A stretch of 64,000 bases of DNA, taken from assembly GCA_003164815.1 (NCBI GenBank), contig PLUF01000094.1, forward strand, positions 1-64,000, written 5' to 3'. Positions 17,502 through 25,827 of the stretch are shown piece after piece. The notes under the pieces are model-generated. The model did no database searches, was not told where the DNA came from, and saw only the letters and a program-made list of their open reading frames with translations. How positions within the stretch are numbered: the stretch's first letter is position 1; every line of letters starts with the position of its first letter. The DNA comes from Candidatus Gagatemarchaeum stordalenia. GTDB lineage: Archaea > Thermoproteota > Nitrososphaeria > Nitrososphaerales > Gagatemarchaeaceae. Position numbers and translations under genes: made by a program.

Positions 17502-19823
17502 CTAGAGATAGCCCCAGGCGAAGAGCATGTCTGAGTCCTTGGACCACCTGCGACCAATGTCGTCCCGGTAGAACATGTTCGGGAGCATCACGTTCTTCAC
17601 AGACTGGTAGGCTTGGGAGATTGCCTCCTGCATCGTCATGCCAGACCCTGTAACGACCAGAGAGTATCCTGACCTCCCTGCCAGTTTCCAATCACCCTCC
17701 TCAAGCTTGACCTCCCCGATGTGGATTCCGTTGAGGTTTGGCTTCCTGAAGAGGATCGTCGCGTCCTCGGAGTACTTCCTGAAGGCCTTCTCGTCCTCGA
17801 ACGGGAAGGGCGGGACCGCGATCACGACGCCGATCTGGTAGCCCCGCTTGCACTTTAGCTGGGTCGGCTTTCCGCGGGCGATGTCGCTGAGAAACGTTCC
17901 CCATTCGCTCAGTACGCCTTCCATGTGAATCGATATGGTCGGATATCCAAATCTCGTCGTGAACTCGAGAGGGAAGACTCCCTTGCCGTTGGCTATGCAG
18001 TTGATGTCGATGTAGCCCACGTACTTCGAGGCCCGAAGCTGTTCCTTCATCCTGCCCAGCGTAAGATCGAAGATCTGGTTCGGCTTAGACCACAACATCG
18101 AGGTATTCCCGCACCAGTACGGCTTTCCGTTTCTGCGCACATACATTATGTGGTTCTTCACGGTTGCACAGTAGACTGTTCCGTCGTAGTCGATGGTGTG
18201 TGTGTCTCTTTTGTCTATCCAGGAATCGAGCTTCCTAACACACTCGTGAACTTCGTATTGCAGCCCTGATGCGTCGGCATCGTGATCTCCAATCCTTATC
18301 CTCCCGCTTCTCTTCCGCTCTTTTACGATGCCGATCCTCCCGACCTTCAGAAGCAACTCCTGGACACCGTCGGCAAGGTTCGGTGAGGCAGTGTAGAAGA
18401 TTCGGAACCCCTTCTCCATCAGGGTCCCATCACCCAAAGAGTACCAGTCGAGGAAAGTGGCTATTTGTCTGGGCGAGGCCTCCTTCACGAATCGTGGAAC
18501 ATATTTTTCTCGAGCGCCTCCGAACTCATCCAGGAATGTGCCCAGCTGTTTGTCGTAGCAGTAGAACTCACCCTCTCCTCTTGTGAACCTGAAGGGGAGG
18601 CTAGATAGCAGGCTTGCTATCCTCTCGGATTTCTCTCCTGTCTTCTGCGCCACATCTATCCTGAAACTCTCGTGGCTCCTGCTCACAGAACCGTCAGCGA
18701 GCCAGATTCCGAAGAACGCAAGCCAGTCATCCATCGGCAATTGCCTCTCGCCGCTCCCGTGCATCACCACCTGGCGCCCTTCGTAATGTCCGATTGAGAC
18801 CGAGGGCAGGGTGAAGACGGCACACTCGGAACCCGTCCAAGCTGCGGTCCTCTTGATGCGCGATTGGGTCTGCAGATCTTTGGCCTTTACGAATTTGAAG
18901 GAATTGCGATGTTTCTTCGCGTCTTGTTGGGATTCGACGTACATGTTATGGTCCGGAGTTACCATTATGTCCAGGGCGCGGTTCTGAATCGAGATCAGCT
19001 TCTTGTGGTGCGTGAAAGACACTAGGCCACTGGGCCTCTCGTACTCAATGGTATTGTTCGACGGGTTTAGTGTACAGATCTCATCGTCCGAGCATAACTC
19101 CTTGAAGAACTTCCAGCCTTGCATAGTCAGGACCTCCGTCTTATCGTCGTAGCATCCCATCTCGCCGGTGCTCGGTCCGATGTCGTTCGGGAAGAGACGT
19201 TTGTGCTCGAAGTTGACGTTGACCGGCTCCACGAAATCGGTGCCGTTGAAGAAGGCGCCGACCGCTATCTCGACGCCTTGAGCATACTTCTGAAGCAGGA
19301 AAACCTTGATCTTGCTCGACCACTTCTTCTTGTAGTGCTCGAGGACCTGCTCGACGTCTTTCCCGTCCTCCTCCTGTCCGACGAAGAGCAGCTCCTTCTC
19401 GTTCTGCGCCTTGCCGCTGGGCTTTATCACGTAGCGGTCCGGGTTCAGCTTGATGAACGCAATGGCCTCGTCGAAGGAGGTGAAATTCCAGCTCGGGAGT
19501 ATCGGCACCCCGGCCCTCTTCAGCTCTTCCTGGCCGAACTCCCTGTCATCCTCGAGCCGGTCGGTGTACGCGGTTCCCCCCACGACGAACTTCCCTTCGG
19601 CCCTGAGCTTCTCTGCGGTCGCGGCGAACCCGATGTCGTCGAAGATTATCACGTCGGCCCAGTCCTTTTGGGGCTCCCACTGGTCGACCTTCTGCACGAA
19701 GCCGTCCCCCACGTCCTTTTCGCTCGCGTCCTGGACGAAGAAGTTGACTTCATGGCCTTCCTTCTTTAGCTGCCACGCCAGGTCTACCGAGAGCGCCTCA
19801 CGCGTGACGAAGAGGAACTTCAA
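17502..19823 (-). CDS. purD: Phosphoribosylamine-glycine ligase-like ATP-grasp protein with intein
   Basis: 773 residues, of which 224-573 are an intein, leaving a 423-residue host of PurD length. The host has the ATP-grasp core (YVIKPSGKAQNEKEL near 131, VEIAVGAFF near 184, PLEFTTRFGYP after the intein) and GPSTGEMG, the equivalent of GPNTGGMG in PurD. The usual N-terminal GSGGREHA motif is missing; the start reads MKFLFVTREALSVDLAWQL. It is therefore a divergent PurD or a close ATP-grasp relative; the purine step is inferred. TTG at 19823 follows a TATA-like box at 28-31 bases. Confidence 0.75.
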   Translation of the reverse strand: MKFLFVTREALSVDLAWQLKKEGHEVNFFVQDASEKDVGDGFVQKVDQWEPQKDWADVIIFDDIGFAATAEKLRAEGKFVVGGTAYTDRLEDDREFGQEELKRAGVPILPSWNFTSFDEAIAFIKLNPDRYVIKPSGKAQNEKELLFVGQEEDGKDVEQVLEHYKKKWSSKIKVFLLQKYAQGVEIAVGAFFNGTDFVEPVNVNFEHKRLFPNDIGPSTGEMGCYDDKTEVLTMQGWKFFKELCSDDEICTLNPSNNTIEYERPSGLVSFTHHKKLISIQNRALDIMVTPDHNMYVESQQDAKKHRNSFKFVKAKDLQTQSRIKRTAAWTGSECAVFTLPSVSIGHYEGRQVVMHGSGERQLPMDDWLAFFGIWLADGSVSRSHESFRIDVAQKTGEKSERIASLLSSLPFRFTRGEGEFYCYDKQLGTFLDEFGGAREKYVPRFVKEASPRQIATFLDWYSLGDGTLMEKGFRIFYTASPNLADGVQELLLKVGRIGIVKERKRSGRIRIGDHDADASGLQYEVHECVRKLDSWIDKRDTHTIDYDGTVYCATVKNHIMYVRRNGKPYWCGNTSMLWSKPNQIFDLTLGRMKEQLRASKYVGYIDINCIANGKGVFPLEFTTRFGYPTISIHMEGVLSEWGTFLSDIARGKPTQLKCKRGYQIGVVIAVPPFPFEDEKAFRKYSEDATILFRKPNLNGIHIGEVKLEEGDWKLAGRSGYSLVVTGSGMTMQEAISQAYQSVKNVMLPNMFYRDDIGRRWSKDSDMLFAWGYL
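18105..19154 (-). mobile_element. Intein in purD, with LAGLIDADG endonuclease
   Basis: Residues C224-N573 (350 residues), inserted between GPSTGEMG and TSMLW. Block A begins with Cys (CYDDKTEVLT), block B is VTPDHN, the two DOD motifs are GIWLADG (D377) and YSLGDG (D465), and block F is VYCATVKNH. The C-terminus is WCGN followed by Thr. The penultimate residue is Gly, not the usual His. Both endonuclease aspartates are kept, so homing may be active. GC content is lower than in the host parts. Confidence 0.92.
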
Positions 19824-22587: not shown

Positions 22588-25500
22588 CTACTGGCCCTGA
22601 TTGTAGGCGACCATGCTTATCATCCCGGCGACCCTGAAGGCTACTTCCTTGAACGCGAGGCTCTCGGGAGAGTCCGGCGCGGCGATTACCATCGGCACTC
22701 CCAGGTCGGACTGTTCGCGGATGCGCGGGTGGAGCGGGATGTCGCCGAGGAACTGCACGTCGAGCGCGGCCGCGGCCTTCCTCCCGCCGCCGGAGGAGAA
22801 GATGAACGACTTCTCTCCGCAATTGTGCACCACTTGATATGGTGTGCAGTAACTATTGTCCTCCTCGACACGGAGATTGTAGACCTTGCCCGAATATGGG
22901 AACCGCCTAACATTCTTGACTCTCAAGTACACGTAGTCATTGTCGAAGCGAGTTCTCTTGGACAGGGTGAATCCAACCCTGAATATCCTATTCGCCCGAA
23001 CCCTTCGACCCTGAATTATCGCGCTGCCTCTGCGCACTGTGATGGAGGGAACGTATCCAAGTTTAAGCCCAATCTCCCGGAAAGCCGCGGCAAGCTGCAA
23101 CGAGATTGTTGTGGCACTCGACTCAATCTCCGTTCGGTGCCCGTCTCCGTTAAGGTAGCTCTCAAAAAGCCAATGGAGTTTCTGAGGAGGCAAAAGCCTA
23201 ACCCAAAGAGGAATACGCTTAGACTTGGCACCCCTTCCAAATTCAAGCGCGAGCCATCTAGCGAGAACTACCGAAGATATCTCCACTCTCCAGCCGGATT
23301 CTCCCTTGTAGAGATTAGGTCGGAAACCCAATCTTGAGGAGGCGGCAGTGAGTTCCATCGCGAAGCGAAGCTCCTTTTCAACCTTCCCAAATGTGAATCT
23401 CACCGCACAAACGCCTCGATTCTTCCGTTCGGCGATGGACCCCTCCGCCAGGTAGTACCCGAGCAGAATCATGAAATCTGGGCCAACGGGAAGGCTGACT
23501 TTCTTTTCCCTGTGATAATAGGGGGCGCTGAATTCCAATCGCTCCATATCCTCAATCTGGACAGTTCGTGGAAAAGCGATGAGATCCGTTGATCCACCTT
23601 CCTTCGCTACTTGGATCCTCGCGGCCTCCTCCCACATGAGTTCAGTCAAGAAGTTTCCAGCCATCCTATGTGAAAGATGTCTCGTCAGGATAGGATGATC
23701 TTCCGTGAGAGTTAGCTGGAATTCTGGAGTTCTTGCTGATTTCGTGCCAATCTCCACCATTTGACCAGTGAAATCGCGTTCGAACTTTTCAGCAACGCGT
23801 CTGTATCTTCCCTTATGCGTCGCGACCAGATCCCCAACATTTACTTCTGAAATCGGGACTAGACCATTCGCTGTTACGATTCTCTGATGGGGCGGAAGAC
23901 AGTGGGGGCAGACGAAGTAGCTCATGTTCTCCACCATCCCGAGGATCGGGACGTTCAGCTTCCTGAACATCCCCACAGCCTTGGTGGCGATGTTGAGGGC
24001 GGCCTCCTGCGGGGTGGTCACTATCACGACTCCTCCGAGGGGGACGGTCTGTGCGAGCGTCAGTCCGCTGTCCCCCGTGTTGTGGACCACGAAACCGTTA
24101 GCTACGAAATTCTCAAATTCCTCCACCTGCAGGTCGTAGGTCTCCACTTCTCCCGCGGGTTCAATTGCAGTTACTCGTGCTATCTTGAAAGGTCGTGGAT
24201 CGAGTTTCATCGAGCACTGGAAGGCGTATGACGTCACATTGTAGCACTCTCTCCCTCTAGGGAGCTTCTTGACTTCATCAGACGACTCTAGCACGTTACC
24301 GGCTCGGAGGCCGCTCATCGCACAGAGCTCGTGCATCTGACGAACGAGTAGTTCGTTCGTGCTCTCCATTTGCACCGTCTCCTGGACGATTGTCACTACC
24401 CGTTGCAGCCCACGCCAATCGGGCAACGATTTCGTCGTCTCCCTGTGCCGAATGGTCGCGTCCGCTTCAGAGTATCCTCGAATGAACGCCAGTCTCTGGT
24501 CTAGGGGAAGCCCGAAAATCCAATCCGGGACCCTCTTGGCCGCTGCCTTGTGATTCAAATCAAGGGCGGTGAACATCTTCGCGAGAGGTGCGGAACCTAT
24601 CGCGAACTTCTGGCCACCGTTGTCGTCGAATGTCTTGCAGGCAAAGACCTTCCTGTAAAGAGATTCATAGGTCTCTCTGAACTTGCTCCCTCTGGGCTCG
24701 CAGATTCGGATCCCTACCGGGTCCTTCTTTCCCTTCTGGACTTTGAAACCCTCCCCTACGAAATGTCCGACGACGCGCATGAAATCAGGGGTCGTCTTGG
24801 CAGGGAGGCTGATGAATCGAGAGTCGTGGTCTGTCTTCGGAAGAGTGAGCGGTTGTCCGCCTTCGATGCAATTTGCGACAATCACCCTGTCTCGGATCTT
24901 GAGTTGACCGACACTCCTCCACGTCAACTTTCTATGGTACTTGAGGAAGGGGTGGTTCCCGCTCGCAAGAATCGTCCTGTTGGGCGTCCTTATTCTGTAG
25001 ACTCGTTGCTTCCCCTGCGGAATCACTCCGACCACCCGCCGCGGTACGAGCTTCTCGCCATCATGGCTCAGCACAAATTCTCCAACCCTGATTTGCTCGA
25101 TCGGCTTTGGAACATTATTGGCGGTAAGTACGAAAGTTCCCGCGGGAAGACAACCAGGGGGGAGATCGACTACCAGGTAGTCGAGGTCGCCCCAGTCGAC
25201 CTGGGTGAGGAGCTGCCTGACGGCCCCCGCGACCATGGGCCCCCTCCAGACCAGAGGCGTCTCGTCCTTGTAGAAGAACCCGAGTGAGGCCACCTTGAGG
25301 CCGTGGGCCACTGGGGGTATGATCGTCTCACCCCTTATCTCCGGGCGTCCGCTGACTCCCATCATCAGCGGTATGCTCGGGCCGTAGACGTCCGCGTCGA
25401 GGATGCCCACTTTGGCTCCTGACCCCGCCAGGGCCAGGGCAAGATTCACCGTTACGGTAGACTTGCCGACCCCTCCCTTGCCGCTCGCCACGGCGATGAT

Positions 25501-25794
25501 GTTCTTCACACCCTTCAGGATCTCCTTGTCTCCGGAGGGGTGGGTCGCGGCGACCTGCGCCCCGACCTTCATCTCGACCGTCCTTACGCCCTTCACGGAC
25601 GCCGCCGCCGCCCGAGCCTCCTGCTCAATCTTCGCCCTGAGCGGACAGGCCGGCGTTGTGAGATTGAGTGTAAAGGCAACCTTGTCGCCATCGATGCTTA
25701 TGTCCTGCACCATGTTGAGCTCCACGAGGTCCTTTCGAAGCTCCGGGTCGGTCACTGACCGGAGCGCCTCGAGAACTTCCTCCTTCGAGACCAT
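22588..25794 (-). CDS. Mrp/ApbC/NBP35-type iron-sulfur carrier ATPase, with two inteins
   Basis: 1068 residues; removing inteins at 215-572 and 632-991 leaves a 350-residue Mrp. The host has an N-terminal MIP18/DUF59 domain (1-80), the deviant Walker A SGKGGVGKST (104-113), DADVYGPS, DLPPGTGD across the first insertion and ENMSYFVCPHCGE across the second. The two cysteines of CPHC hold the bridging 4Fe-4S cluster in the dimer; the second Cys is also the +1 residue of intein 2. It carries and delivers Fe-S clusters in the cytoplasm. ATG 25794 lies 28 bases from a TATA box. Confidence 0.93.
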   Translation of the reverse strand: MVSKEEVLEALRSVTDPELRKDLVELNMVQDISIDGDKVAFTLNLTTPACPLRAKIEQEARAAAASVKGVRTVEMKVGAQVAATHPSGDKEILKGVKNIIAVASGKGGVGKSTVTVNLALALAGSGAKVGILDADVYGPSIPLMMGVSGRPEIRGETIIPPVAHGLKVASLGFFYKDETPLVWRGPMVAGAVRQLLTQVDWGDLDYLVVDLPPGCLPAGTFVLTANNVPKPIEQIRVGEFVLSHDGEKLVPRRVVGVIPQGKQRVYRIRTPNRTILASGNHPFLKYHRKLTWRSVGQLKIRDRVIVANCIEGGQPLTLPKTDHDSRFISLPAKTTPDFMRVVGHFVGEGFKVQKGKKDPVGIRICEPRGSKFRETYESLYRKVFACKTFDDNGGQKFAIGSAPLAKMFTALDLNHKAAAKRVPDWIFGLPLDQRLAFIRGYSEADATIRHRETTKSLPDWRGLQRVVTIVQETVQMESTNELLVRQMHELCAMSGLRAGNVLESSDEVKKLPRGRECYNVTSYAFQCSMKLDPRPFKIARVTAIEPAGEVETYDLQVEEFENFVANGFVVHNTGDSGLTLAQTVPLGGVVIVTTPQEAALNIATKAVGMFRKLNVPILGMVENMSYFVCPHCLPPHQRIVTANGLVPISEVNVGDLVATHKGRYRRVAEKFERDFTGQMVEIGTKSARTPEFQLTLTEDHPILTRHLSHRMAGNFLTELMWEEAARIQVAKEGGSTDLIAFPRTVQIEDMERLEFSAPYYHREKKVSLPVGPDFMILLGYYLAEGSIAERKNRGVCAVRFTFGKVEKELRFAMELTAASSRLGFRPNLYKGESGWRVEISSVVLARWLALEFGRGAKSKRIPLWVRLLPPQKLHWLFESYLNGDGHRTEIESSATTISLQLAAAFREIGLKLGYVPSITVRRGSAIIQGRRVRANRIFRVGFTLSKRTRFDNDYVYLRVKNVRRFPYSGKVYNLRVEEDNSYCTPYQVVHNCGEKSFIFSSGGGRKAAAALDVQFLGDIPLHPRIREQSDLGVPMVIAAPDSPESLAFKEVAFRVAGMISMVAYNQGQ
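22822..23901 (-). mobile_element. Mrp intein 2, inside the Fe-S CxxC motif
   Basis: Residues C632-N991 (360 residues), between CPH and CGE. Block A is CLPPHQRIVTANG, block B is LTEDHP, the DOD motifs are GYYLAEG (E784) and YLNGDG (D884), the terminus is QVVHN and the +1 residue is Cys. The His-Asn end is canonical. GC is about 48% in sampled lines against well over 60% in the host. Confidence 0.94.
24079..25152 (-). mobile_element. Mrp intein 1, inside the DLPPG-TGD nucleotide motif
   Basis: Residues C215-N572 (358 residues), between DLPPG and TGDSGLTLAQ. Block A is CLPAGTFVLTANN, block B includes ASGNHP, the DOD motifs are GHFVGEG (E348) and GYSEADA (D445), the terminus is FVVHN and the +1 residue is Thr. 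Little identity to intein 2 is visible beyond the blocks, so the two probably arrived separately. Confidence 0.94.
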
Positions 25795-25817
25795 CGGAAA
25801 AAACCATTCGGGCCCCG

Positions 25818-25827
25818 ATTAAAGCTT
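25818..25827 (-). promoter_or_regulatory. TATA-like box for the Mrp gene
   Basis: The minus strand reads AGCTTTAATC, about 28 bases before the ATG at 25794: leaderless spacing. Confidence 0.55.

Follow-up and report, generated by a model that had tools for sequence, protein, structure and literature searches.

A class 1 intein of a penultimate-Gly group in the conserved glycine-rich loop of an archaeal PurD-like protein

A His before the terminal Asn is usual in class 1 inteins but not obligatory, and exceptions have been published (PMC5050341). Among the nearest described systems is the intein of gp51, the RDF of mycobacteriophage Bethlehem, a class 1 intein with a penultimate Gly that, as described in PMC5050341, splices fully; its Gly-to-His mutant is slower and accumulates precursor, and the authors consider that the role of the penultimate His can pass to the His of block F. 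Going by that published description, the gp51 intein resembles the one reported here in class, penultimate Gly, and possession of an endonuclease, yet it resides in a host protein other than a PurD-like one. A second relative is the insert in ThyX of Corynebacterium phage P1201 (DQ499600, where it is annotated "contains hypothetical intein"), which matched our intein at E 4e-23 and ends VYCATVPNHTLYVRRNGKPVWSGN before Ser; it differs in its phage ThyX host, in the Ser residues at G:5 and +1, and in sharing 25% identity. The TliVMA intein (PDB 7qsu and 7qss) has the same Hint plus LAGLIDADG fold, with a Z of 26.3 over 309 residues, although its host is a VMA protein and identity is 22%. As for the host, the GAR synthetases PDB 2qk4 and 2yrw share its fold (Z 29.8 and 29.4, respectively) and the GPxTGxMG motif, at 18-19% identity in the structural alignment. 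Searches for an intein together with purD or phosphoribosylamine-glycine ligase found no paper in the literature covered, many subscription papers falling outside that scope. Block names follow PMC4031507, which gives Asp as the commonest residue at F:4, followed by Cys and then Trp.

The window, that is, the whole stretch analyzed, comprises 64,000 nucleotides of contig PLUF01000094.1 (GCA_003164815.1) from Candidatus Gagatemarchaeum stordalenia, an archaeon with relatives labelled Thaumarchaeota or Nitrososphaerales. On its reverse strand, which carries all the features of this gene, positions 17502-19823 form a single, stop-free frame of 773 amino acids, with a TTG start and a stop codon at 17502-17504, in which GARS_A and GARS_C exceed their Pfam cut-offs. 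The N-extein (19155-19823; 223 amino acids) ends in GPSTGEMG, the intein (18105-19154; 350 amino acids, from Cys1 to Asn350) spans precursor residues 224-573, and the C-extein (17505-18104; 200 amino acids) opens with Thr at +1 (18102-18104), the junctions reading GPSTGEMG/CYDDKTEVLT...KPYWCGN/TSM. These bounds are fixed by host comparison, since the insert is absent at this very point in 13 related hosts and the spliced host measures 423 amino acids in 24 of 26 compared hosts, the exceptions being two empty-site genes with untrimmed starts (a partial gene, in genome G016, was excluded from the 26). The sequence-only reading had proposed an intein in the conserved glycine-rich loop of a PurD-like enzyme, and the empty-site relatives return the same coordinates; the loop takes the form GP(S/N)TG(E/G)MG and is interrupted here at GPSTGEMG/TSM, and the host is PurD-like both by its Pfam domains and by the GAR-synthetase fold of its model. 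The details it had given are likewise correct: WCGN before Thr, with Gly penultimate, is read directly from the sequence, the block F His is retained, and both endonuclease Asp residues are intact. Within the insert, LAGLIDADG_3 (PF14528) reaches 26.9 bits against a cut-off of 22.5. Pfam Intein_splicing gives E 0.024, below its own cut-off, and NCBIfam intein_Nterm left the intein undetected in a genome search at E 0.01; such general models overlook it. In the precursor's AlphaFold model (mean pLDDT 80.6, pTM 0.51, with low confidence for the loop around the insertion), residues 222-573 superpose on VMA inteins, TliVMA among them, at the Z cited above. The intein in the PurD-like gene is thus real and well bounded, not a chance resemblance.

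Cys1 (19152-19154), the first nucleophile in the class 1 scheme as presented in PMC4031507, does not vary among the 31 aligned inteins, nor do T66 and H69 of the block B stretch T66-P-D-H69 (Thr B:7 and His B:10; 18948-18959). Alignment places the first LAGLIDADG acid at D154 (WLADG; 18693-18695) and the second at D242 (SLGDG; 18429-18431). The Cys at block F position 4 (C329; 18168-18170), the block F His (H335; 18150-18152), and the end of block G, Cys348-Gly349-Asn350 (18105-18113) followed by Thr+1, show no variation among the 20 precursors that carry an intein here. Cys1, the block B Thr and His, and the terminal Asn followed by Thr agree with class 1, the departure being Gly349 at the place of the penultimate His. 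Class 2 and class 3 mechanisms are rejected because Cys1 is present and the WCT triplet is absent: position 1 is Cys rather than the Ala of class 2, and Cys1, Met at B:12, and Cys at G:5 rule out class 3, with which the F:4 Cys alone is compatible. Splicing of the precursor, as predicted from these residues, would begin with a thioester at Cys1, continue by transfer to Thr+1 and cyclization of Asn350, the role of the penultimate His being taken by the block F His or by other residues, and finish with an acyl shift; the unspliced host is presumably inactive. With a probability of about 90%, we consider that this is a full-length, probably mobile class 1 homing intein in the GP(S/N)TG(E/G)MG loop of a PurD-like protein, that it probably splices in the usual manner, and that its Gly was inherited from its intein group. 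As a class 1 homing intein of the penultimate-Gly group, it is a further case of a known kind.

The sequence-only reading had singled out the penultimate Gly as an oddity of this intein, a view that gives way once the group is considered. Among 191 distinct parsed inteins of the group, which span archaea, bacteria, and viruses, the penultimate residue is Gly in 184, Ser in three, Lys in two, Leu in one, Cys in one, and His in none, bearing in mind that the set was defined by more than 12 bits to a C-block model (built from 31 aligned inteins, mostly ending in Gly-Asn) plus Asn before Cys, Ser, or Thr, a filter that favours the group's own Gly-Asn ending. A check without the C-block filter, on the best 80 of 201 loci fetched by N-terminal pattern only (an Asn, Gln, or Asp ahead of Cys, Ser, or Thr was still required), gave 77 Gly and one Ser among 78 readable loci, the two others (L102 and L111) having several inteins per frame and being misparsed and uncounted. 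All 21 distinct same-site inteins end WCGN/T. Other hosts of the group, identified by eye, include helicases, AAA+ ATPases, MCM-type and anaerobic ribonucleotide reductase-type sites, NAD synthetase, and a papain-like protein. The archaeon's own genome holds three inteins of the group (that of the window, L047, and L052), whereas its other intein groups have His-Asn ends, seven by eye in an inventory that may be incomplete: two in the window, L059, L060, L254, and two in L255. Read in the same way, a putative family B DNA polymerase (PolB) gene on another contig (L061, contig C14) contains two inteins, one with Gly-Gln before Ser and one with Lys-Asn before Thr. Since His-Asn closes the inteins of other groups in this genome and Gly recurs across the hosts of this group, Gly follows the intein group and not the organism or the gene; such a variation is already known, and within its group it is the rule. 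The block F His occurs in 148 of the 191 and is thus not universal in the wider group. Separately, three group inteins lack both the penultimate and the block F His (L038, L042, and L049, with VPTGVIMV, VPTGVILV, and STSTGFYV), and end in SGN or QGN. We also observed that the two His-Asn inteins of the window share one frame of 1076 amino acids (22591-25818, reverse strand), an Mrp/NBP35-like ATPase by eye, the first lying after LPPG and before TGDSG and the second within CPH/C, so placed that its +1 residue would supply the second Cys of a CPxC motif. In L047 and L040, a group intein lies directly before the Cys of NS/CTANAIAGA in the papain-like protein; this Cys looks catalytic, so splicing could act as activation there.

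The distribution of the intein is patchy. We searched 61 genomes, the window's own and 60 relatives, 48 of which gave some match at E 0.001, in some cases to the intein only. Judged by the pattern of matched segments, 27 of the 61 carry the PurD-like gene, with the site of the window (site a) filled in nine (in G016 the gene is cut at a contig end), no insert in 13, and an intein at a second site in five. Together with the window's copy, eight other relatives and 12 further contigs make up the 21 distinct same-site inteins; ten of these contigs bear labels of DPANN phyla, one that of an uncultured archaeon, and one that of a Nealsonbacteria bin, the other names being Nanoarchaeota, Diapherotrites, Aenigmatarchaeota, Micrarchaeota, Ca. 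Ainarchaeum, and Woesearchaeota. The second site of the PurD-like gene (site b), PLEWT/C...N/CRFGYP, is occupied by the same intein group. Its inteins (L054-L058, from five genomes) are 351-355 amino acids long, with SGN, SSN, SLN, or AGN before Cys. A genome of the same genus (G001) has a host 89% identical and an empty site, which may not be a current target since only 22 of its 30 central bases match. The Nealsonbacteria-labelled contig (L075) carries an archaeal-type PurD-like gene with its intein and clusters with a Nanoarchaeota-labelled copy in both trees; it is possibly misbinned. Mapped onto a tree of the 26 hosts, occupancy takes six changes at site a and two at site b. The extein tree unites four DPANN-group copies (L069, L075, L080, and L081), a clade that the intein data reject (AU p 2e-55); the intein tree in turn has a clade of L079, L080, and L081, which is rejected by the extein data (AU p 3.5e-6). 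Both p values are flattering because the clades were named after the trees had been seen. Transfer between Nitrososphaerales and DPANN was also considered, as pairwise identities had pointed that way: one Nanoarchaeota-labelled copy shares 64% identity with the window intein, against 46-59% for four copies of Nitrososphaerales type. The intein tree is, however, compatible with the Nitrososphaerales inteins forming one clade (AU p 0.685), so this transfer was dropped and the conflict is retained within the DPANN-labelled set only.

The endonuclease is in keeping with such mobility. Both of its key positions are acidic (Asp or Glu) in 17 of 20 copies and both acids are lost in three (G/G, N/N, and R/R), while the CGN/T junction is kept in all 20, including those without the acids, a combination that fits a homing cycle of invasion, nuclease decay, and retained splicing. 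The window intein has the two acidic motifs expected of a LAGLIDADG endonuclease; its two-motif domain would be able to cleave the empty site, and probably spreads the intein into empty copies of the same site. Patchy occupancy, the DPANN tree conflict, the kept or lost acids, and the related intein at the second site all make the intein look mobile. Relative to L065 and L066, its two nearest comparisons, intein dN is 0.21 against a dS of 1.7-2.0, which is near saturation, and purifying selection is about as strong on the intein as on its host. The GC content of the intein is 0.53 (0.68 at third positions) compared with 0.58 (0.83) in the host, and the lower third-position value fits acquisition but also a difference in constraint.

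Could the missing His nonetheless serve a purpose? One proposal would see a cross-domain group with a stable His-to-Gly change, in which a Cys pair at F:4 and G:5 replaces Asp/His, block F drives Asn cyclization, and a Cys-Cys bond or a metal gates it; we think this improbable as a whole, although, if such gating were true, maturation of the host would be redox dependent. The pair (C329/C348) is present in 20 of 20 same-site precursors and in 106 of the 191 parsed group inteins, and the redox reading takes its lead from a class 3 intein whose F:4 Cys, as described in PMC6195587, forms a reversible disulfide under oxidation. In raw counts, G:5 Cys accompanies F:4 Asp in 0 of 17 group inteins and F:4 Cys in 106 of 170. 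When each cluster counts as one row, p for this covariation rises from 0.0005 (clusters at 80% identity) to 0.02 (50%) and 0.21 (40%). Phylogenetically independent pairs run 3.6 the same way and 0.2 the opposite way, with a median p of 0.25; the covariation is suggestive only, and the claim of it was dropped. Another pattern concerns the +1 residue: among 190 inteins, F:4 Asp occurs solely with +1 Cys (16 of 16 listed), and most of those with F:4 Cys have Ser or Thr at +1, independent pairs being non-significant.

A related idea is that the missing His tunes splicing at this locus, slow or conditional splicing allowing the intein to regulate the PurD-like protein. The insertion in a conserved loop, a Cys pair that could be redox sensitive and is constant at this site, and the phage intein whose penultimate residue alters the rate (as described in PMC5050341) would be in keeping with it. 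However, Gly is common to the whole group across hosts and sites and therefore was not selected for the PurD-like host, empty-site relatives manage without the intein, and the F:4/G:5 covariation is weak on independent pairs; regulation of this kind is, in our opinion, quite unlikely.

The sequence-only reading had further held that purine synthesis would depend on splicing, which the genomic context speaks against. The host belongs to the PurD superfamily by GARS_A, GARS_C, and a modelled fold closest to GAR synthetases (Z up to 29.8, ahead of PurK at about 24 and PurT at 23.7), and its predicted structure and sequence make it a GAR-synthetase-fold PurD paralogue. Nevertheless, the spliced host scores 108.4 bits with TIGR00877, the purD equivalog model, against a cut-off of 288, and two motifs of 2yrw, KADGLAAGKG and EFNARFGDPE, align with KPSGKAQNEK and EFTTRFGYPT. 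These altered motifs we take to be the ATP loop and the metal site of PurD. A second PurD of 466 amino acids is encoded on the same contig beyond the window, near purH, purQ, purL, and purF (GARS_A match at 77.9-78.4 kb), and likewise scores below the TIGR00877 cut-off, at 160.4 bits. Among the 27 related genomes, drafts chosen for having the PurD-like gene, 13 encode a PurL that exceeds its cut-off, and 12 of these 13 (but no others) also yield a second GARS_A match, of 79-92 bits. The exception, G034 (a draft, 72% complete), has PurL without a second PurD match and is, besides the fold and domains, what could favour the host being the organism's GAR synthetase. Conversely, 14 of the 27, among them G017, rated 100% complete, and G016, with a contig-end piece of PurL only, retain the PurD-like gene but have neither a PurL above cut-off nor a second PurD. 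The 12 other genomes with a site-a gene have PurL over cut-off in four, just under it in one, and absent or as a weak match in seven, and six of them show a further GARS_A match of 110-271 bits (one as two contig-end pieces). Single gene absences mean little because the genomes are drafts, and in 16 loci inspected by eye no conserved neighbourhood was seen around the PurD-like gene. Overall, the presence pattern argues against a dedicated purine role; the PurD-like gene is probably not the purine-making one, and it is very unlikely that purine synthesis here needs splicing. Finally, that the intein has lost splicing and sits in a pseudogene or an unneeded gene would accord with the second PurD and with the endonuclease acids gone in three of 20 copies, but is very unlikely given that the group's splicing-block residues are all kept, the frame is open, and intein dN/dS is about as low as that of the host.

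We return to a probably mobile class 1 intein that probably splices and whose Gly before the terminal Asn is a stable group trait and no defect. For the host, the lesson is that a gene annotated as PurD-like need not encode the purine enzyme. For the intein family, the remaining interest lies in how large and widespread the penultimate-Gly group is and in the Cys pair at the C-terminal junction; with its patchy sites, intact and decayed endonucleases, and two sites per gene, the group offers material for the study of Asn cyclization without a penultimate His.
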